Shown here: positions 3-23,917 of the stretch, piece after piece
Position numbering within the stretch: position 1 is the first letter of the stretch
How the letters are laid out: each line of letters starts with the position of its first letter
Assembly: GCA_028717345.1 (NCBI GenBank)
Contig: JAQUNZ010000025.1
Span: 1-33,021 of the forward strand
Source: Candidatus Methanoperedens sp.
GTDB taxonomy: Archaea; Halobacteriota; Methanosarcinia; Methanosarcinales; Methanoperedenaceae
DNA: 33,021 nt
Direction: 5' to 3'
Program-made: the position numbers and the translations under genes
The notes under the pieces: model-generated
Database searches by the model: none
The model's input: only the letters and a program-made list of their open reading frames with translations
Told to the model about the DNA's origin: nothing

Positions 3-950
3 GAAAAGAACAGGTTCGGGACTCTGGGAACATCCATATTTCATCTTTGCATACTTCTCATCATACTTTCGTCGCTATACGGAAGTACGGGAAGGATGGA
101 AGGCGATATGAGATTGATAGAAGGGCAGACCCTTTCAGAAGACCACGGGAATTATATATATATAAACGAAGGGCCTCTTTTTTTTGATAAGCATCAGAAA
201 TTCAATATCACACTTGAGAAGTTCTATCCTGATTATTACGACAAATCAAACACTTCAAGGGGAGCGGCAGGAAAGCTTGTAATTCAAAAAGATGGAAAAG
301 TCGCTGCCACGGATATAGTTCATTCCAATCATCTCATGACTTACGGGGGATACACTTTTCTCGGGAACGTCTATGGTATGGCGCCTCTTCTGATATTGAG
401 AAATGCGGATGGAAGTGTCATCTCAGGGTCATATATTACTGCTTCTGACACCGATAATAGCAAAAGGTATGTGACAATGTTCGATATAGGCAATACCGGG
501 CTTGAAGGGGGCTTGATGGTCTATATGACCGCCAATCTGACATCCGGGAATATTGCGGAAGGAGATGCCGAACAAATGCCAGTCCTCTTCCTGAAAATAT
601 TTGAGAGGGGAACTGAGATATTCGACGGCAAGCTCGGACTCAACGACGCAGTTCAGATAGGCGATAAATACCTCGTGTTTTCAGATGTAAAATACTGGAG
701 CAACTTTTATGTCGTAAAGGATGAAGGGACACTTCTGGTATATACAGGAATCGGGCTGATAACCTTGAGCCTGATAATCATGTTTTTCATCATCCCCAAA
801 CGGCTCTGGGCGGAGATAGTGAGCGGCGAGACCGGAGCAACGGAAATTCATATCGGGGGCAGGGCTGACAGGTTCAGGTCTTTATATGAAGAAGAATATT
901 GCAGATTAATAGAGCATATTAAAGAGAGGTTATCAAATGGGACAGATTGA
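3..950 (+). CDS. ResB-like cytochrome c biogenesis protein (5' truncated by window edge)
   Basis: The reading frame is open from the first bases of the window, so the true start lies upstream; the first in-frame ATG at 96 is internal. What is visible is a transmembrane helix (about nt 24-90), a long soluble beta-rich domain with repeated GG/GY turns, then a second helix (about nt 729-800) followed by a basic cytoplasmic tail ending in a charged helix. This is the layout of the C-terminal half of ResB/Ccs1, which works with CcsA to deliver haem across the membrane and attach it to apocytochrome c. The 3' end overlaps the start of the CcsA gene by 14 nt, the usual gene pair, which strengthens the call. 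No catalytic motif decides the family, so the name rests on topology and context. Confidence 0.8.
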   Translation, partial: EKNRFGTLGTSIFHLCILLIILSSLYGSTGRMEGDMRLIEGQTLSEDHGNYIYINEGPLFFDKHQKFNITLEKFYPDYYDKSNTSRGAAGKLVIQKDGKVAATDIVHSNHLMTYGGYTFLGNVYGMAPLLILRNADGSVISGSYITASDTDNSKRYVTMFDIGNTGLEGGLMVYMTANLTSGNIAEGDAEQMPVLFLKIFERGTEIFDGKLGLNDAVQIGDKYLVFSDVKYWSNFYVVKDEGTLLVYTGIGLITLSLIIMFFIIPKRLWAEIVSGETGATEIHIGGRADRFRSLYEEEYCRLIEHIKERLSNGTD

Positions 951-1794
951 TCATACCCTGTATCTTGCAGCAATGACATTATACGGGCTCAGTTCGATAT
1001 TATATATCTACTGCTTCGTATTCAGGAGGGAAGACAGGATAAGTTATGCGTATTATGGCTCATTAGCCGGACTCGTGGTACATAGTGTGGCAATAGCCCT
1101 CAGGTGGATAGAATCCGGGCACGGGCCGTATGTAAACATGTATGAGGTGCTTTCCAAGTACGCATGGTTCTGTGTTGTCATTTTCCTGTTAGCACAGCAA
1201 AAATATCCAAAGATCAAAAGCGCTGGTTTTGCCGTAATGCCTGTCGCGTTTTTGATGATGGGTGTTGCTAATACGTATTCCAGAGATATCACGACTGAAT
1301 CTGCATCCCTGCACAGCTACTGGCTGATAGCCCATGTTGTTTTCGCAAACCTTGCGTTCGGGTCAATACTTGTGGCTGTCGGGATCGCTGCCCTGTATAT
1401 ACTGAAAGACAGGCGGCTAAAAAAGAAGGAAATTGCTGATGGTGAAAAGATCGATGATTCGTTCTATGACAGGTTGCCCTCAATGAATGTCCTGGATGAC
1501 CTTATGTACCGATTCGTGGCTTCAGGTCTCCTTTTCCTTACTATCATGATCGCAGCAGGGGCAATATGGGCTAACCAGACATGGGGGAGGTACTGGGGAT
1601 GGGACCCCACAGAGACCTGGTCTCTTGTCACATGGTTCATGTACGGGTTATGCCTGCATCTTCGCATGAACGCAGGATGGTCTGGAAAACGGATAGCCTG
1701 GTTCATAATATTCAGCATAATTGTACTGGCTTTCTCTTTGTTCGGCATCGGGTATGTGTATTCAGGGCTTCATTCGAATTATTTGACATCGTGA
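937..1794 (+). CDS. ccsA: CcsA/CcsB-type cytochrome c biogenesis protein (haem handling)
   Basis: A 285-aa polytopic protein with about eight hydrophobic segments. Residues 216-228 hold the tryptophan-rich WWD signature of haem-handling proteins (W216, W220, W222, D223 and W228, within WGRYWGWDPTETW). Histidines flank it, among them H133 and H279 in a C-terminal GLHSN that matches the conserved family histidine. Known role of the family: with ResB it moves haem outward and presents it to CxxCH motifs (System II). A good ribosome site (GAGAGGT, about 922-928) precedes the ATG, which lies inside the end of the ResB-like gene, so the two are translationally coupled. The small permease CcmC shares the WWD motif, but a ResB-like partner and the 285-aa length favour CcsA. 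Confidence 0.93.
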   Translation: MGQIDHTLYLAAMTLYGLSSILYIYCFVFRREDRISYAYYGSLAGLVVHSVAIALRWIESGHGPYVNMYEVLSKYAWFCVVIFLLAQQKYPKIKSAGFAVMPVAFLMMGVANTYSRDITTESASLHSYWLIAHVVFANLAFGSILVAVGIAALYILKDRRLKKKEIADGEKIDDSFYDRLPSMNVLDDLMYRFVASGLLFLTIMIAAGAIWANQTWGRYWGWDPTETWSLVTWFMYGLCLHLRMNAGWSGKRIAWFIIFSIIVLAFSLFGIGYVYSGLHSNYLTS

Positions 1795-3846: not shown

Positions 3847-6800
3847 ATGGCTGCCATATGGTGTCTGAGAATGATGGAAGGATCATTCGAGCATGGGAGG
3901 TTGAATAAGGTCATACCTTCAATGATCATTGCTGCGGCTGTCCTCCTTTTTGTTTCTGCAATGCTGGTAATTTTTTCTGGAAATCCATCAGGCTATACCC
4001 CAATAACAGACAAATGCATTTTATGCCACAATGATACGGGCTATCCGGCAGACACTAACAACGATTCTATTTCAGCGCCCTATAAACGCCCGCATAATAA
4101 TACAATAATGTGCGAAGCATGCCACACTGAAGACCTCCATAATATTGTATATATACAGGGACACGGGACTTACGGATTAAGTGGCGGGGCTGCCACGTGC
4201 CTGAACTGCCATCAGGAAAAGATAAATAATTCTAATTTTACCAATGCACCCATTATCCCTGCGCTGAAACACTCTTCAAACCCCAATAACGGTACTACCT
4301 GGGGTACATACTGGAACTCAAGTCAGAATGCCGCAGCTTCATGTTATTACTGCCACGGGGATACAAAACATAACGTTACCGCAATTGGCGGAGTAACTTA
4401 TCTTCTTTCAGACCCCAACAACATCAGGAACGGCTCACTTTCCAGTACGACCTGGTGCGCCGACTGTCACCTTAACGGCTCGATAAACCCCAACTATCGC
4501 GGCGACATGTGGTCACCTGCTCCACCTCTCATAACTGTGAACAACACAGGCAAAGCCGGATGGATAAACCACAGCACTTTCTTAACCGGAGGATCAAAAG
4601 ACAGTGTCTGCAAGACATGCCATGCCCTGAACGGGACGTATGCGCCAACCTCGCTGAATTATTCTCACAGCCTTGACGTCGGGTTAAATGGAGGTAAGGA
4701 CTGCATCGCATGTCATAATATCGGAAGCGGATTCCATAACATCGATATCGATGCGGTTAACTTGAGCGTCCATTCAGGCATGAACGCCCGGAACGCTACG
4801 AATGCGAGTGTTGATGCCCTTAACGGAGCGTGCTGGGCATGTCACGATACTGATGGGAACATCAGCAATAATCCTGCCAGCCAGGTAATGGGCGACATAT
4901 ATAATACTCCCAAGAAATGCATTGACTGCCACCTTTCAAGCGGGATATACCATACCCAGTCTGTAAGCTGGGGCGGGCTGACAGTATCAGAACATTACTT
5001 TGCAGGCGATGTAATAAAAGCAGGGAACTCGACATCAGACATCTCGTCATGCATCACCTGCCACGAGAACGTAAGCGAAATGATCCTTCCGAACAACGAC
5101 CCGGATACAGGAACATTTGTGGGTGATGGATCGAGACTCACGGGAGGTAACATGAGTTTCTACCATTACGGCAAGCCAAGACCTGATATTCGCATCTGGG
5201 AATCGGGAAAGACCGCAAACTGCTCCTACTGCCACCAGAACGCAAGCACTGCATTTGCAGGAGCCATGGCAAATGCCAGCTACAATACTTCAATCCAGAA
5301 CCACACAGCACCGGGCATAAATTCACCGAACTGCTATAATTCCACATGCCACGGTTCAGGTTGGATCCATAACTCCACACTCACCAGACCATCCTTCACA
5401 TCAACCAACTCAACATACTGCCAGAAATGTCACTCAAAAGAAAAACACAACAATACCCTGAACTGCAACAACTGCCACATCGACAGTAATAGCAGCGATA
5501 CCATCCATCCCATAAAATACCTGCAGACAAACAAGAGTTATTTGAGACTCAGTACCTCCGCAGTCAACTGTACCAACTGTCACCAGAACTCATCCTTCTG
5601 GACAGGATCGCCATCAGTCCCCATCATCCCTGGAGTATTAAAACACTCCTCCAATGTAAGCAATGGCAGTATCTGGAACAATACTTCATACTGGACATCG
5701 AACAGCGGTTCATGCTATTACTGCCACGGAAACACCAAACATAACCAGACAGCACTCGGAACAATAAATTTCCTCCTTGCAGACACTAACAATACCAGGA
5801 ACGGAACACTCTCAAATACCAAATGGTGTGCAGATTGCCATATCAACACCTCAAATGCCAATTATAGCGGCACTATCTTCCCATCCGCTCCACCTCTGAT
5901 CACAATCGACAATACAGGAAAGAGTTACTGGACAAACCATAGCACATACTTCGGAACAGGGATCAAAGACAGTACCTGCCGTTCATGTCATGCCATGAAT
6001 GGAAATTATGCAGGAACATCACTCAACTACTCTCACAGCCTTGATCCAAGAACCTCAGGACCCGATTGTCTCTCATGTCACGATACAGGAAAACTTGCTC
6101 AGAAGAGAATAAACAATTCAGCCATGAACGGAACCGATGCAGTCCACAGGAACCTCAACTCCAATGCAATTAACTCAAGTAGAGTCTCGGCAGAGAACAA
6201 GAAATGCTGGGGCTGTCACGACTCAACAGGCAGCCAGCCATCCAATGACAGCATGGGAAGCAGGTTCACCACTCCCTACAAATGTTACGATTGCCATAAC
6301 TCAACATCAAAACCATACTCCAATGTCAGCACTGCCCCCAACGTGAGCGAACATTTCAGAGGCGGTGACCAGATCCGGGCAGCATCGAATGCATCAGATA
6401 ACTCTTCATCATGTCTGGTCTGCCATAACCTGGGTGAACTCAAAGTAATCTATGCAGAAGACGATTCATACAATACCAATTATTCCCTCTCATCCCATTA
6501 TGGAAAGAACAGAACAGACCTGAGAACCTGGAACGGAAACCAGGCAGTAAACTGCAGTTACTGTCACCAGAACAGTACAACAATATTCGAAACTGCAATG
6601 GCAGATGCATCATATAACAAGTCCATCAGTAACCACAGTACCAGAACAAATTCACCGAACTGCTATAATTCCACATGCCACGATTCAGGCTGGATCCATA
6701 ACTCCACACTCACCAGACCATCACTGGATTTGCCTAACTCTACTTATTGTATATCATGCCACACCACAAAACAAATGCACAATGGATCCACGGGTCTGAA

Positions 6801-9723
6801 TTGTACACAATGCCACATCGACAGTAATAGCAGCGATACCATCCATCCCATAAAATACATGCAGACAAACGGTTCATTCCAGACCTCAAACACATCCGCG
6901 GTCAACTGTACCAGCTGCCACCAGACATTATTAGCAAACTTCAGCAGCGCCCCCCATATCCCCGGTATCTTGAAACATTCTTCAGATCCATCTTCGGGCA
7001 TGAAATGGGGCAACTACTGGAACAATAGTTCTGCTGTTACAGCATGTTACTACTGCCACCAGAGCCAGGTTCACCTGGCAACAGGACTTATTGGCAACAT
7101 AACATCAATAAAAGGTTCGAACAATTACAATGATACAGACCTTGGAAATTCCACATGGTGCTCTGCATGCCATTACAATGACAGTTCATCAAATTATAAG
7201 GGCGATCTTCTATCCCCTGTACCGCCTGAGATCTTGAACAGTACCGGAAACATGCCGCAAAATGCAAGTGATGGGACTACATTCTATAATCACAGTGAAA
7301 TTCAGCAATATGATGATGGACATTGCAAGAACTGCCACGGAAGCGAATTGTCAGGTTATATTAAAACCTCCAGGAACTTCGTCCATAGTGTTTCTGAAGG
7401 TGGAGGCGGTCCATCATGTGTGACCTGTCATAATACAAGCGGAACAGGATCGCCAATAGACAAAAGGGTAGATGTGCCTGCAATGAAGCAGGGAGTACAC
7501 AGAAATCTGAACCTGAACGCTGTTAATACTTCAAATATTGATCCAGTAAATAAAGCGTGCTGGGCATGCCATGGAGATGGAACAGAACCTTCCGGGCATC
7601 CGGCAGGATACAGGTCGCCGCGAAAATGCGAAAGCAGCGAATGCCATTCAATATCGCAGTCAGCATTTAACGAGAAAATGGTATATTCGCATTTCATGAA
7701 TGCAAGCTTGAACAGCAACCCTGAAAATGCCACGAATTATAATATCACAACCTCAGCCCGGTGCCAGGAATGTCATATTAACAGTGTGGTGATGAATGAC
7801 GGAAAGCAGGCGCTTGCAGTTGTTTCACATTATGGAACAAAAGATGAACTTGTGGATTCATTCAACTGCCGCTACTGTCATCTTGATAAAGAAAATAGCG
7901 AAGACTGGGGAGACGCCACGTTGATCAACAGGAACAGGACAGGACTGATCGAACTTGAAAAAGAACGGAACCTGCTCAAAGTATCAGACGGCGAGAGCGT
8001 CTACCTTGGAGAAGGATATTACCTGAAACTGAAAGAAATAACACCAATGCGGGATGATGTGATAATCCAGGTTCTCAAAGGCGATATGATCGTAGATGAG
8101 ACAGCGCTTGGCGCAGGGATATTATATAAATATGAGACTGAACTCATCATCGATAATTCTAAAGTAAAAACTCCGGTCATCATACTGAACATTACGTCCA
8201 TTTTCAAAGGCACAAGCGGCTTTATTCAATTTGAGGGTTTCAGGATAAAGAAAGTCCATAATGAGCGGGAGAGCAGGAATAACACCAACTGTTTAGCCTG
8301 CCATTTATCCAGATATTCGGGAGAGAAAAAGAGATATATTGTCATCGACAGGGAATACAAAGAAAATTCCAGCGACAACATCTTTTATTCTGAATTGTTC
8401 GTAGATTTCAATCAAGATAACAAAAGTAAGATATATTTTTCTGATGAAGATAGCATAATAGCCCAGTTCCTGAATGGAGGAAAATATTTCTCATATCCCA
8501 AATTGCAAAAATACCTGAAAGAAGGAGATACATGGAACATCGCGGACAACTATGCGTTGAAACTCAATGAAGTAAGTACAGAAAGCAAACTGGCGTGGAT
8601 GAACCTTACTATTAACGGCGCAGTCGTTGAGGATGCCGCAGTACCTCTCGGATACCGGTTCAATTATACACCAGGGCTGAAATATAAAGACGCCTCTATG
8701 AACAACATAACTGTATTTACCGCGAACGTCTCTGCTATTTCCCAGGGGGCACCGAATTTCGTAATTCTTACTGGCGTATATGGAATATCACCGCAGGTGG
8801 TGAAAATAACTTCAAATTCAACTCTTTTCGGATATAACAGCAGCTGGCTGAGGCCAGGTGAAACCCTCTCTATCGGAAAGATACCGGAGAATCTGCATGC
8901 TCCGAACCTGTTTACAGACCAGGGCGGCTGGGACGATTGTGTTAAATGCCACGACGCCTCATGGAAACTCGGGATAGCGGGCTTTAATGCCATCTCCACA
9001 AGACTGGGAAAACATTCAGGGCTGAACAGGAACGCATCCAGCGGGACAAGCATTTCAGATACCATAGATAAGGCATGCTGGGCATGCCATACAGGAGGTG
9101 AAGAGCCCACGATACACTCACCAACTTATATTAAGGCGAGAAAATGCGCGTCATGCCATACATACCAGGAAGAGCCGACATACGGTGCGAAAAGTGTTGG
9201 CGATGAACTTCACGGGCTTGAGCAAAACTGCGAAAACTGTCACTACTGGGGTTCCCATAACATCATCAGGTTCGAGATTACACCGGGTATAAAAGCAGCA
9301 ACTCTCTCGCCGGAAAAACCAGTTAAGGGAGAGAAATTTATACTAACAGCAAGGGCGTTCGCAGGATACAGGATGACGATAAAAGACGTGGAATATTTCA
9401 TCGATGATACTGGCATATCCGGAACAGGAACACCACTTGAACCTGTTGATGGAGTGTTTGATTCGCAAAAAGAAGATGTGACTGGAGTTATAGATACCAC
9501 CAATATTCCTGTTGGAAAACATGTTATTTACATTCATGTAATGGAAAGAACTGATAAATGGAGCGATTATTATCCAGTTGACCTTACGATAGTTGATGTA
9601 TCTTCCAGTCCAGGCATGCTGAACAATTCAAAATATGATGTGTATTCCCAATGGTCAGGTATCATTTATCTAATAATTGTTTTAACTGTTGCATACTTTG
9701 CGATCTCAAAGCGCAGGCATTAG
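3847..9723 (+). CDS. giant surface multiheme c-type cytochrome (40 haem motifs) with S-layer-like domains
   Basis: A 1958-aa protein with 40 haem-attachment motifs: 37 CxxCH and three CX4CH (starting at C496, C939 and C1261). Order: helix at 22-43 (signal anchor); motifs 1-35 between residues 57 and 1345; S-layer-like domain at about 1372-1470; motif 36 at 1482; second S-layer-like domain at about 1555-1655; motifs 37-40 at 1698-1799; Ig-like domain at about 1812-1925; C-terminal helix at 1937-1952 followed by SKRRH. Haem motifs recur in a 12-motif unit that begins at CYYCH (residues 166, 623 and 1067). Asn-x-Ser/Thr sequons are very dense, as in glycosylated surface proteins. Known for the family: such cytochromes carry electrons out through the archaeal envelope. 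Start 3847 has GGTGG 8 nt upstream; ATG 3874 is an alternative. The cytochrome call is secure; partners and electron acceptor are inference. Confidence 0.96.
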   Translation: MAAIWCLRMMEGSFEHGRLNKVIPSMIIAAAVLLFVSAMLVIFSGNPSGYTPITDKCILCHNDTGYPADTNNDSISAPYKRPHNNTIMCEACHTEDLHNIVYIQGHGTYGLSGGAATCLNCHQEKINNSNFTNAPIIPALKHSSNPNNGTTWGTYWNSSQNAAASCYYCHGDTKHNVTAIGGVTYLLSDPNNIRNGSLSSTTWCADCHLNGSINPNYRGDMWSPAPPLITVNNTGKAGWINHSTFLTGGSKDSVCKTCHALNGTYAPTSLNYSHSLDVGLNGGKDCIACHNIGSGFHNIDIDAVNLSVHSGMNARNATNASVDALNGACWACHDTDGNISNNPASQVMGDIYNTPKKCIDCHLSSGIYHTQSVSWGGLTVSEHYFAGDVIKAGNSTSDISSCITCHENVSEMILPNNDPDTGTFVGDGSRLTGGNMSFYHYGKPRPDIRIWESGKTANCSYCHQNASTAFAGAMANASYNTSIQNHTAPGINSPNCYNSTCHGSGWIHNSTLTRPSFTSTNSTYCQKCHSKEKHNNTLNCNNCHIDSNSSDTIHPIKYLQTNKSYLRLSTSAVNCTNCHQNSSFWTGSPSVPIIPGVLKHSSNVSNGSIWNNTSYWTSNSGSCYYCHGNTKHNQTALGTINFLLADTNNTRNGTLSNTKWCADCHINTSNANYSGTIFPSAPPLITIDNTGKSYWTNHSTYFGTGIKDSTCRSCHAMNGNYAGTSLNYSHSLDPRTSGPDCLSCHDTGKLAQKRINNSAMNGTDAVHRNLNSNAINSSRVSAENKKCWGCHDSTGSQPSNDSMGSRFTTPYKCYDCHNSTSKPYSNVSTAPNVSEHFRGGDQIRAASNASDNSSSCLVCHNLGELKVIYAEDDSYNTNYSLSSHYGKNRTDLRTWNGNQAVNCSYCHQNSTTIFETAMADASYNKSISNHSTRTNSPNCYNSTCHDSGWIHNSTLTRPSLDLPNSTYCISCHTTKQMHNGSTGLNCTQCHIDSNSSDTIHPIKYMQTNGSFQTSNTSAVNCTSCHQTLLANFSSAPHIPGILKHSSDPSSGMKWGNYWNNSSAVTACYYCHQSQVHLATGLIGNITSIKGSNNYNDTDLGNSTWCSACHYNDSSSNYKGDLLSPVPPEILNSTGNMPQNASDGTTFYNHSEIQQYDDGHCKNCHGSELSGYIKTSRNFVHSVSEGGGGPSCVTCHNTSGTGSPIDKRVDVPAMKQGVHRNLNLNAVNTSNIDPVNKACWACHGDGTEPSGHPAGYRSPRKCESSECHSISQSAFNEKMVYSHFMNASLNSNPENATNYNITTSARCQECHINSVVMNDGKQALAVVSHYGTKDELVDSFNCRYCHLDKENSEDWGDATLINRNRTGLIELEKERNLLKVSDGESVYLGEGYYLKLKEITPMRDDVIIQVLKGDMIVDETALGAGILYKYETELIIDNSKVKTPVIILNITSIFKGTSGFIQFEGFRIKKVHNERESRNNTNCLACHLSRYSGEKKRYIVIDREYKENSSDNIFYSELFVDFNQDNKSKIYFSDEDSIIAQFLNGGKYFSYPKLQKYLKEGDTWNIADNYALKLNEVSTESKLAWMNLTINGAVVEDAAVPLGYRFNYTPGLKYKDASMNNITVFTANVSAISQGAPNFVILTGVYGISPQVVKITSNSTLFGYNSSWLRPGETLSIGKIPENLHAPNLFTDQGGWDDCVKCHDASWKLGIAGFNAISTRLGKHSGLNRNASSGTSISDTIDKACWACHTGGEEPTIHSPTYIKARKCASCHTYQEEPTYGAKSVGDELHGLEQNCENCHYWGSHNIIRFEITPGIKAATLSPEKPVKGEKFILTARAFAGYRMTIKDVEYFIDDTGISGTGTPLEPVDGVFDSQKEDVTGVIDTTNIPVGKHVIYIHVMERTDKWSDYYPVDLTIVDVSSSPGMLNNSKYDVYSQWSGIIYLIIVLTVAYFAISKRRH
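5319..5533 (+). repeat. intragenic near-identical repeat, copy A
   Basis: Two blocks within the cytochrome gene, at 5319-5393 (around the first CX4CH motif) and 5473-5533 (around motif 14), are almost letter-for-letter the same as 6648-6722 and 6811-6871. I count only a few mismatches in each block, while the sequence between them differs more. This is much closer than the rest of the 12-haem units and suggests recent duplication or gene conversion. Confidence 0.8.
6648..6871 (+). repeat. intragenic near-identical repeat, copy B
   Basis: Second copy of the two conserved blocks, shifted by 1329 nt (first block) and 1338 nt (second block) from copy A. The blocks code for the second CX4CH motif with the following SGWIHNSTLTRPS stretch, and for motif 26 with HIDSNSSDTIHPIKY. 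The frame is kept in both copies. Confidence 0.8.
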
Positions 9724-21096: not shown

Positions 21097-22494
21097 TTAG
21101 TGTTTATGCATTATCGGCTGCCCAAGTACCCAGAGATTGAAAACAAAAAAAATAAGAACAAATATCAATACCGGGATGTAAGCGGAATCACTTCCATGGA
21201 ACATCCGCCTGGAAATATTTTTACCGACCGATACTGAAAATCCCAATCCAACAAGCATCATCAACCACTGGATCAAGAGAATGTTGTTAATGTTGAGAAG
21301 CGGCGCAGGAATATACCCGGAAGTCCCGAATAGATTCCACCCAAAGCCAAATGGATCCGAAAGAACAGGAATTATCCCTGTGCCTTCTTCCAGTAAATGG
21401 CGGATATTATGGGAAAGATGCATCATCAACCCCAGAGGAATAATGGAGTACGTATAGCCTGTGAAAATATCTTTAAAACTTATTTTGATATCTAATAATT
21501 TTGAGGTACCAATGGCTATTGAATAAACCAGAACGGGAACCACTGCGGCAGTGATAAATAAAATAAACCGAACAGAATCATAGCTTGCGCCAGTATATAC
21601 CATTAGATCCCTGGTGAAACCCACCCACGGTCTTATCATAATCAGTGTCTGGAATATTGTCACTCCGAGGAGGATCAAAATAAACAGTGCTTCATCCATT
21701 CTGATTTTTGTTAAAGTAAAAAGATCTCCAGCAAAGGAACGAATATTAAAGGATATGTTATTCCTGTGGCAGGTTTTTATGCATTCAGTGCAGAGAACAC
21801 AATGATTGTTTTTATCCATGGTTCCAGGATATTCGAATACCGGGCAAGCGTAGCCATTTTCATTCCCTGATATGCAGTATTTTTCCTTGCAGGTCTTGCA
21901 CGTTTCTTTTTCTTTTGCCCGCAATTCAAAAGGAGCGAACATTGAATATAAGCCTATCAATCCTGTTATGGGGCATACGTACCTGCAAAAAGAACGGCGC
22001 TCGAAGATGATAGATATTATTACGATCAGACCGAGTAAAGCAACAATAAAGTACGCGGTGTTAAGAGGGCTGTTCACGAGATTGAACTGGAAATCAGCCC
22101 ATGTGATGACAAGAAAAAACACTGCAGCAAGGGAAAGGTTTCTGAATTTTACAGGCAATTTCCTGTTCAAACTGAATGTGTCATTGACCTTTTTATAAAA
22201 AGTCCGGCGCTGTACCCAGTCTCCGATAGCCCCGAAAGGGCACATAAGGCACCAGACCCTTCCTGCCACTGCCAGGCTAATTATGAGAAGCGACCACCAG
22301 ATCACCCAGACTGAATTCGTTACAAGGCTCCTATTGCTGTTCTGGATCCCAAAAAAGCCTGCAAATACTACCAGGACTAAAAACATAACTGCTGGCAATT
22401 GGAATAGAAACTGGGTTTTGCGATTCTTCAAGATGGATCTTATTGATTCATTATCGAGCAGGTCGTATCTATCTGGTCTATCTTCGCTTTTCAT
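21097..22494 (-). CDS. NapH/NosR-like membrane iron-sulfur protein
   Basis: A 465-aa protein with about ten helices and twelve cysteines in a clear order: C82/C85 in VWCLMCPFGAIGDW and C170/C174 in SFCRYVCPITGLIG (the two CxxCP and CxxxCP signatures of NapH/NosR/CcoG proteins), then a soluble loop with C199, C202, C207 and C217 and the ferredoxin-like C232, C235, C238 and C242. Two [4Fe-4S] clusters are likely. The second half adds a helical part with a histidine-rich LMMHLSHNIRHLLEEG segment that could bind haem or a quinone. The known role of relatives is to pass electrons between quinol and outer-face enzymes. It overlaps the beta-propeller gene by 17 nt. Direction of electron flow and partner are inferred. 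Confidence 0.85.
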   Translation of the reverse strand: MKSEDRPDRYDLLDNESIRSILKNRKTQFLFQLPAVMFLVLVVFAGFFGIQNSNRSLVTNSVWVIWWSLLIISLAVAGRVWCLMCPFGAIGDWVQRRTFYKKVNDTFSLNRKLPVKFRNLSLAAVFFLVITWADFQFNLVNSPLNTAYFIVALLGLIVIISIIFERRSFCRYVCPITGLIGLYSMFAPFELRAKEKETCKTCKEKYCISGNENGYACPVFEYPGTMDKNNHCVLCTECIKTCHRNNISFNIRSFAGDLFTLTKIRMDEALFILILLGVTIFQTLIMIRPWVGFTRDLMVYTGASYDSVRFILFITAAVVPVLVYSIAIGTSKLLDIKISFKDIFTGYTYSIIPLGLMMHLSHNIRHLLEEGTGIIPVLSDPFGFGWNLFGTSGYIPAPLLNINNILLIQWLMMLVGLGFSVSVGKNISRRMFHGSDSAYIPVLIFVLIFFVFNLWVLGQPIMHKH

Positions 22495-23917
22495 TTCTCA
22501 TTTTTCCTCTTAAAAAACTCACAAATACCATGGAAAAGATAACAGAGCCAAGCACTAAACCCAAAAACACCATGCCTGGTTTTGTAAAAGAGTCTGTTAA
22601 ATCGTCATTTACTTTTACATTCCTGCTGAATTCCCAGTTTTTACCGTTGTATTTTCCATGTGAAAAATATATGTCTCCGCCGTCAGTCCCCGTAGTTCCC
22701 GTAGTCCCCGTATTTAAATACGGGGTCTCGAAGTACGGGATCTCGAAATACGGCTTCTTTTCTGCCTGCCATACAGTGTAGATATTGTCTTGCGAGATCT
22801 CTATCTGTGGATCGTAATGTTTGCCGCTGATATCGTTTACCCTGGTGTTCTTATTAAACTCAAGGCTGTCATTCCTTCTGATGCTCTTTGAGAAATAAAT
22901 ATTTGATGCGCCTTCTCTTTCGTCCTCCCATACCGCAAAGATCTCCCCGTTCCTGACTGCAATTGAGGGGTGCATTTGATCTGTATTTCCCGTATCGTCA
23001 TTTATCCGTATGTTTTTATCAAATTTCCAGCTGTTGTTCACTGATCTGCCTGTTGAGAAGAATATATCAAAATCCTTATTCCTGTCATCATACCATGCAA
23101 TATACGCACTTCCATTCTCAAATACAATCGAAGGAGTATACTGGGAAGCATTTGTGGATTCATCATTTACCATGACGTTCCGGCTGAATTGCCAGACTCC
23201 GTTTTCTTTTGTTCCATGTGAAAAATAAATATCATAATTTCCATTTCTGGCATCCAGCCATGCAATACATACATTTTTTTCATCATCAACTGCAAGCGAT
23301 GGGGCATAATGCCAGTTACCTGTAGGATCATCGTTGACTTGTATTGGCTTCCCGAACCTGTAAACACCATTAAATGGATATCCTTCTGTGAAATCAATAT
23401 CCCAGTTCTTCTTATTCATCATGGCGACATATACAGTTCCATTCAGAACCGAAATAGACGGCATCACCTGGCTTCCTGTCTCAGCTATAACTGGCAAATC
23501 CTTTTTGAACTTTATATTGTTTTTTTCAGATGTAGAAAAATATAGTTCTTCAAACCCGAACCTGTCATCCTCCCATACCACATACAGGTTATTGTTATCA
23601 ACCGCTATCGAAGGAGAGCCGTGTCCCGTAGTTCCCCTGATTTCGTTAATCCTGATATTTTTGTCAAAAACCCAGCCGTCCTGGAAACTTCCTTTTGAAA
23701 GATATATGTCCCCGGATTTATGAGGCAGGTTGTTCATTATCCGTGTATAATTGCCGTTTCTCTCATCAGCCCAGGCAACATATACTGTATCGTTATCAGA
23801 AGTTAAAGATGGGAACCACTGGAGAGAATTATTCTCTCCCCCTGCGCTTCCATGAAAATTCATGTTCAAAACTATAATGGCTGTTATAAGAATCGGGAAT
23901 ATACGTTTTTGTTTCAT
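22478..23917 (-). CDS. membrane-anchored extracellular seven-repeat beta-propeller protein
   Basis: A 479-aa protein with an N-terminal signal sequence (residues 5-24), seven repeats of the type PSIAV-(x)-NxxYVAWxDxRxGxxDIYFS followed by W-F-x-KNIRVND, and a C-terminal helix with a basic tail (LVLGSVIFSMVFVSFLRGKMRNEKRR). The repeats begin near residues 36, 101, 155, 207, 258, 311 and 360, so a closed seven-bladed propeller is likely, of the sialidase/BNR-like kind, but the sialidase catalytic residues are not evident. It should sit outside the cell, tethered to the membrane. The last blade is interrupted by a short low-complexity insert made of Pro-Tyr-Phe and Gly-Thr repeats. It is the first gene of an overlapping pair with the NapH-like protein, so the two probably form one complex. 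Confidence 0.88.
   Translation of the reverse strand: MKQKRIFPILITAIIVLNMNFHGSAGGENNSLQWFPSLTSDNDTVYVAWADERNGNYTRIMNNLPHKSGDIYLSKGSFQDGWVFDKNIRINEIRGTTGHGSPSIAVDNNNLYVVWEDDRFGFEELYFSTSEKNNIKFKKDLPVIAETGSQVMPSISVLNGTVYVAMMNKKNWDIDFTEGYPFNGVYRFGKPIQVNDDPTGNWHYAPSLAVDDEKNVCIAWLDARNGNYDIYFSHGTKENGVWQFSRNVMVNDESTNASQYTPSIVFENGSAYIAWYDDRNKDFDIFFSTGRSVNNSWKFDKNIRINDDTGNTDQMHPSIAVRNGEIFAVWEDEREGASNIYFSKSIRRNDSLEFNKNTRVNDISGKHYDPQIEISQDNIYTVWQAEKKPYFEIPYFETPYLNTGTTGTTGTDGGDIYFSHGKYNGKNWEFSRNVKVNDDLTDSFTKPGMVFLGLVLGSVIFSMVFVSFLRGKMRNEKRR
22681..22755. repeat. nested palindromic repeat inside the propeller gene
   Basis: A perfect 20-bp palindrome at 22706-22725 (CCCCGTATTTAAATACGGGG) is flanked on one side by tandem CCCGTAGT-like units and on the other by two units of TCTCGAARTACGG. 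It is translated in frame as the Tyr-rich and Gly-Thr-rich insert of blade 7. The whole looks like a small element or expansion inserted without breaking the gene. Confidence 0.7.

Follow-up and report, generated by a model that had tools for sequence, protein, structure and literature searches.

In the genus Candidatus Methanoperedens, S-layer cytochromes with as many as 113 counted haems have been described, and the origin of such sizes is not explained in the relevant passages of the open papers searched. The window, by which we mean the whole stretch of DNA analysed (33,021 nucleotides), comes from this methane-eating archaeon and contains, at positions 3847–9723, a single ORF for an S-layer-anchored multihaem cytochrome of 1958 aa with 40 haem motifs, as judged from the ORF, the motif count and Pfam matches. 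Coordinates below are window positions, and all parts of the cytochrome gene lie on the + strand. We consider it probable that this protein is an S-layer-anchored cytochrome of the ANME MHC-A type, in which the base is fixed and the outer part is modular and changes by 12-haem blocks.

The 12-haem period of the window protein

The first-pass annotation had listed 40 haem sites arranged with a 12-site period, and both points were borne out. A recount gave 37 CxxCH motifs and three of the CX4CH type, namely two CYNSTCH (residues 496 and 939) and one CESSECH (1261). The period was examined by comparing the sequence around each haem motif with that around the motif k positions later, with permuted site orders as the null. 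Shift 12 was the sole shift that stood out, with a mean score of 19.2, and all other shifts up to 29 scored between −25 and −11.8; the highest score in 500 permutations was 2.4.

The unit starts at residues 166, 623 and 1067, with spacings of 457 and 444 residues, were reproduced. The first two units, U1 (4342..5712, residues 166–622, haems 4–15) and U2 (5713..7044, residues 623–1066, haems 16–27), both recognized by self-alignment and by the unit HMM, align over their full length (462 aa, 52% identity, E 1e-166). The third copy is partial, as previously listed: U3, the terminal unit detected by the unit HMM (7045..7881, residues 1067–1345), carries eight of the 12 sites (haems 28–35) and shows 31–32% identity to the first eight sites of U1 and U2 (E 2e-39 and 7e-43, respectively). 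The proposed match of the N-terminal sites to the end of a unit was also recovered, because the N-cap with haems 1–3 (3979..4332, residues 45–162) equals positions 348–453 of the unit HMM, and sites 2–3 are 40% identical to sites 14–15 (E 2e-18). Finally, the region of sites 37–39 resembles that of sites 7–9, which are unit sites 4–6 (E 5e-11 against U1 and 2e-15 against U3). The earlier description is therefore correct in each detail tested.

The Pfam c7/c3 and MtrC models match nearly everywhere along the window protein, a fact that favours a reading in which the 12-site period is a by-product of generic multihaem similarity, that is, of CxxCH motifs joined by Asn/Ser/Thr-rich linkers. This reading is refuted, and we leave it practically no probability, because shift 12 alone is significant against permuted sites, U1 and U2 align from end to end, and the indels between homologues described below are one unit long. 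Structure prediction with AlphaFold2 for residues 166–1064, from 26 two-unit rows, gave a pLDDT of 35.5 and a pTM of 0.22, values too low for a superposition of the units or for haem geometry.

The unit itself hints at an older, shorter period. In comparisons of profile–profile windows, the best value was obtained at shift 6 (mean 60.5 versus 53 and 45 at the neighbouring shifts), and the two halves of the unit align in register. A gapless motif-centred test for this six-haem half-repeat gave no signal (p 0.39). These results leave room for the possibility that the unit descended from a six-haem ancestor. As to an external source, no relative of the unit was found in a scan of viral contigs, and the repeats of the Borg multihaem cytochromes (PMC9879509), which we considered as the same thing, were rejected, since those are short disordered repeats.

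The S-layer base and the outer array in relatives

The part of the protein that follows the array is of a different nature. Residues 1346–1690 constitute a DUF1608 S-layer domain pair according to Pfam, profile and fold searches. The first beta domain (7882..8280, residues 1346–1478) was delimited by base alignment, model and fold search, and the second (8305..8916, residues 1487–1690) by its match to PF07752, a profile match, model and fold search. Haem 36 (CLACH, 8290..8304, residues 1482–1486) lies between them and is separated by the two domains from haems 35 and 37, a feature absent from the first-pass annotation. Downstream are the motifs of haems 37–40 (8938..9243, residues 1698–1799), predicted to lie below the S-layer, an Ig-like beta domain seen in the predicted structure model (9286..9594, residues ~1814–1916) and a C-terminal transmembrane helix supported by model and hydropathy (9649..9705, residues 1935–1953). 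At the other end, hydropathy indicates a hydrophobic segment (3913..3981, residues 23–45) that is a candidate signal peptide or signal anchor.

This layout corresponds to that of ANME MHC-A, which the relevant passages of Chadwick et al. 2022 (PMC9012536) describe as having an S-layer pair with one linker haem, a C-terminal helix and 20–80 haem sites. The window protein contains the DUF1608/PF07752 pair, the single haem between the subdomains and the helix, and its 40 sites are within that range. It differs from ANME MHC-B in that the haem-free N-terminal peptidase M6-like domain is missing (haems begin at residue 57, and there is no such Pfam match). A further trait of MHC-B is an adjoining CcmF2 gene; upstream of the window's cytochrome gene lies a ResB and CcsA/CcmF-like pair, the second member of which may be of the CcmF1, CcmF2 or CcmF3 type. 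It also falls outside ANME MHC-C, as no pectin-lyase domain was found with Pfam and an S-layer domain is present. Chadwick et al. propose, as a proposal only, electron transfer through the S-layer for ANME MHC-A; they class ANME cytochromes by domains and haem distribution, and the passages concerned mention no 12-haem unit, unit-number variation or exchange.

The S-layer region matches MA0829 of Methanosarcina acetivorans (PDB 3u2g; profile E 6e-8, fold E 4e-8), with which it shares the two S-layer beta domains; however, MA0829 is haem-free, whereas the window protein has haem 36 between the halves. The unit profile has no match in PDB to any solved cytochrome nanowire, and yields a weak match to MtrF (E 2e-5 over about 100 residues). 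Similarity to MtrC/MtrF is limited to Pfam domain II/IV matches in several stretches, and the decahaem layout of those proteins, with four domains, two of them pentahaem domains that alternate with split beta-barrels, is not seen. The idea of a long extracellular haem chain is common to the nanowires OmcS, OmcE, OmcZ, PcECN and AvECN, but these are polymers of a small subunit (review, PMC12954529), whereas in the window protein repeated units are fused in one chain, the length of which is encoded by the gene.

To parse the relatives, we used the unit HMM, a profile of 454 positions with which each can be read as an N-cap, a number n of whole units, a terminal 8-haem unit and the base; 68 full units were found among the ORFs scanned. 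S-layer relatives were counted with haem-free S-layer queries, as the whole C-terminus used as a query cross-matched haem regions. Among the 51 S-layer relatives of the order, a single haem is present within the S-layer region in all 51, and four haems follow it in 47; four more distant proteins have 16 or 19. In contrast to this 1 + 4 constancy, the number of haems before the S-layer ranges from 3 (on a truncated contig) to 115. The counts form the series 11/23/35, 15/27/39 and 16/28/52. Counts outside these series also occur (13, 18, 22 and 29), some of them on truncated contigs, so the steps are not always 12. A comparison of unit number across related genomes, suggested with the first description, shows that the copy number of the unit in a protein ranges from 0 to 5 or more and that close homologues differ by exactly one unit. 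The same description would have been called into question by relatives of equal length without a repeat. None was found among the large S-layer proteins, but an orthologue group of ~1180 aa is fixed at 18 haems before the S-layer and 23 in total in 11 of its 12 members; the remaining member is truncated.

Within the genus, 30 of 31 genomes have a match to the unit profile, and within the class 79 of 238 do; the period of 12 was found in the window protein and about 15 relatives. Unit-bearing cytochromes without an S-layer domain also exist, and the array is therefore not tied to the S-layer anchor. Proteins of ANME-3, ANME-2, Hydrothermarchaeum and Pyrohabitans likewise show a significant 12-haem period; in Pyrohabitans, 24 is stronger than 12. 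An example is a protein of Pyrohabitans JdFR-16 (L131; 3294 aa, 72 haems, five units), in which shift 24 outscores shift 12 and unit pairs seem to have been duplicated together. Other periods were encountered in passing. A protein of GoM-Arc1 GB37 (L173; 3320 aa, 41 haems) has a significant six-haem period, which adds to the hint of a six-haem ancestor of the unit. The first ORF of L043 (G005:C19) comprises 29 haems in a frame that remains open towards the contig end, and has a strong 11-haem period (68 at both shift 11 and shift 22) that perhaps represents another repeat family.

The largest relative is G008:C49, with 5599 aa and 120 sites (113 CxxCH and seven CX4CH). By isolate and motif count (record VEPN01000036.1, isolate MnB_21), it is the 113-haem MHC/S-layer protein of Ca. 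Methanoperedens manganireducens that Leu et al. 2020 (PMC7082337) describe, in the passages concerned, as the largest cytochrome known and as highly expressed. It has the same unit and the same base as the window protein, but differs in its haem-free N-terminal region of ~550 aa and in its units, of which five are full and others partial. Because it is built of repeated units, the size of the 113-haem protein is explained; the main text of that paper does not contain the word 'repeat', and a repeat basis was not reported. Two contig-end fragments, G012:C73 and G012:C50, appear to represent opposite ends of a single, very long relative of this 120-haem protein.

Whole-unit differences and similarity between genes

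Homologues differ by whole units and in register (35 versus 23 and 39 versus 27 haems before the S-layer). G001:C26 and G006:C45, sisters on the tree of the S-layer base (support 100/100) with 81% identity over 1554 aa, are one clean 12-haem block apart, both ends of which lie at GG[AP][ND]C..CHDI, at the same unit position. The window protein and its closest homologue, G030:C149, are about 60% identical throughout, and residues ~583–1032 of the former are missing in the latter. At the DNA level, most neighbouring units share less than 83% identity (87% in one pair), and assembly collapse of repeats is therefore unlikely for these two homologue pairs. The position of the window protein in the S-layer tree has moderate support (85/87), and its gene neighbours (subtilase, CoaBC, DUF166 and malic enzyme) are not adjacent to the gene at the homologues' loci; homology thus rests on the S-layer tree and on the even identity along the protein.

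The unit that distinguishes the window protein has its nearest counterpart in another gene. U2, the middle unit, shares 77% identity with a unit of G000:C5, a second cytochrome gene in this genome, and the two units are sisters on the unit tree (100/100). Identity to this paralogue is 72–92% over residues ~575 to ~1024 and about 50% or less in the flanks; this putatively exchanged period (5569..6918), with overall ~80% amino acid identity, is 79.5% identical at the DNA level over 1379 bp. Since U2 resembles the G000:C5 unit and is missing in G030:C149, units appear to move between genes. U1 groups with the sole unit of G030:C149, and U2 is in a different group, which indicates that the array was built from two old unit lineages. 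G008:C49 presents another situation: four of its consecutive units are 80–90% identical to each other and at most 65% identical to units of other genomes, and they form one clade, a pattern that we interpret as a recent amplification.

Growth by duplication of a 12-haem cassette, the process first proposed for this gene, is thus upheld in part. The unit does recur and has been amplified in G008:C49, but U1 and U2 are not recent local duplicates, as judged from the unit tree. The window array would have been assembled via exchange between genes as well as by duplication, and recombination is the process that the alignments suggest for the unit changes. As far as the open literature shows, the whole-unit differences, the 1 + 4 constancy, the movement of units between genes and the candidate distal His residues with Met at haem 5 (see below) are new; the 12-haem repeat is likewise not described in the closest passages of open papers, although absence there is no proof of novelty.

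Candidate haem ligands, topology and possible roles

Alignment of 64 units places, between every one of the 12 haem sites and the motif that comes next, a single non-motif column in which 80–100% of the units have His. Histidine is present in 96% of the inter-haem intervals, versus 60% in shuffles. In the window protein, His is absent from two intervals only, those that follow site 8 (haem 5 of U1) and site 20 (haem 5 of U2), and both of these contain Met. According to the unit alignment, Met348 (4888..4890) and Met803 (6253..6255) replace the conserved candidate distal His at these sites. Met occurs in the haem-5 column in 11 of the 64 units, and these are spread over two or more separate regions of the unit tree. 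This pattern may be read as bis-His haems with His/Met ligation at haem 5. Met ligation usually raises the potential of a haem. In the base, the invariant His1471 and His1684 (A2 columns H406 and H619) are separated from haems 35 and 36 by the first and the second S-layer domain, respectively. The S-layer domains may therefore have been inserted between a haem and its distal ligand, keeping the chain continuous through the lattice.

In the mechanism that we propose, the C-terminal helix would lie in the cell membrane, four haems and the Ig-like domain between the membrane and the S-layer, and both S-layer beta domains within the lattice, on either side of a single haem. The haems of the N-terminal part, grouped in 12-haem blocks, would project outward and would pass methane-derived electrons to minerals, electrodes or partners. 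The distribution of N-glycosylation sequons, which number 97 in the window protein versus 36 in shuffles, fits this predicted topology. Their density per 100 aa is 4.8 in the outer array, 3.5 in the S-layer part and 1.26 in the part below, and the array exceeds the part below in 45 of 45 proteins. An exposed array and a hidden C-terminal part would account for this pattern, although it also partly reflects the Asn/Ser/Thr-rich composition of the haem regions.

The N-terminal segment bears on this topology, as the hydrophobic stretch of the window protein is long (residues 18–49) and could be an uncleaved anchor. Both ends would then be at the membrane, and the array would lie between membrane and S-layer and carry electrons sideways. 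We consider this arrangement improbable: sequons are densest in the array and sparsest in the C-terminal part, up to 115 haems are hard to fit between membrane and S-layer, and the signal peptide of G008:C49 looks ordinary.

With an outward array, blocks would be gained, lost and exchanged in register by recombination of homologous units, within one cytochrome gene or between different ones, and the outer part would thereby change 12 haems at a time. This suggests that external electron-carrying chains are lengthened or shortened by block swapping. The regular haem wire envisaged in the first-pass annotation would further imply continuous conduction along the array, and its length may be a target of selection. 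The extra units might instead store electrons or offer docking surface, acting as a capacitor or reducing surface without serving reach, their number drifting by neutral recombination. The same units do occur in many cytochromes without an S-layer domain, and their number differs widely among close relatives. Nevertheless, conservation across the 64 units reaches or exceeds 90%, or comes close to it, for all 12 motifs and for 11 of the 12 candidate distal His columns, which indicates that the haem sites in added units are under constraint, and the base of 1 + 4 haems is constant; we therefore regard storage or docking as rather unlikely. A more elaborate version of the outward array, which we put forward tentatively and as falling short of probable, is that Methanoperedens maintains a pool of interchangeable 12-haem modules (perhaps 2 × 6 in origin) in several genes, and that these are swapped in register, tuning both the length and, through His-to-Met changes at haem 5, the redox profile of a single-chain surface conductor.

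A 12-haem module, a constant 1 + 4 base and whole-unit differences explain the large cytochrome sizes simply, and predict that reach or capacity rises in steps of 12 haems. The module lends itself to expression, to cryo-EM and to the building of synthetic haem chains, and in ANME and related archaea the scheme could serve to classify the numerous large cytochromes that are poorly conserved.

Upstream of the cytochrome gene are genes for a ResB-like cytochrome c maturation protein (96..950, + strand, PF05140) and a CcsA/CcmF-type cytochrome c assembly protein (937..1794, + strand, PF01578), which overlap. Passages of a 2015 survey (PMC4429474) report no maturation systems II–V in archaea, and those of Chadwick et al. 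(PMC9012536) describe a split CcmF. Close homologues of the pair (68–76%) were found at 16 further places in the genus, and homologues lie on the same contig as unit-bearing cytochromes in G008:C37, G006:C9, G005:C43, G025:C56 and G016:C90. The notion that the pair is required for repeated units was rejected, since G001, G003, G007 and G009 have units and only weak CcsA matches. Elsewhere in the window (21097–23917, − strand), a Fer4_5 (NapH-like) protein adjoins a 479-aa protein that has no haem motif and weakly matches the N-terminal domain of MtrC/MtrF.
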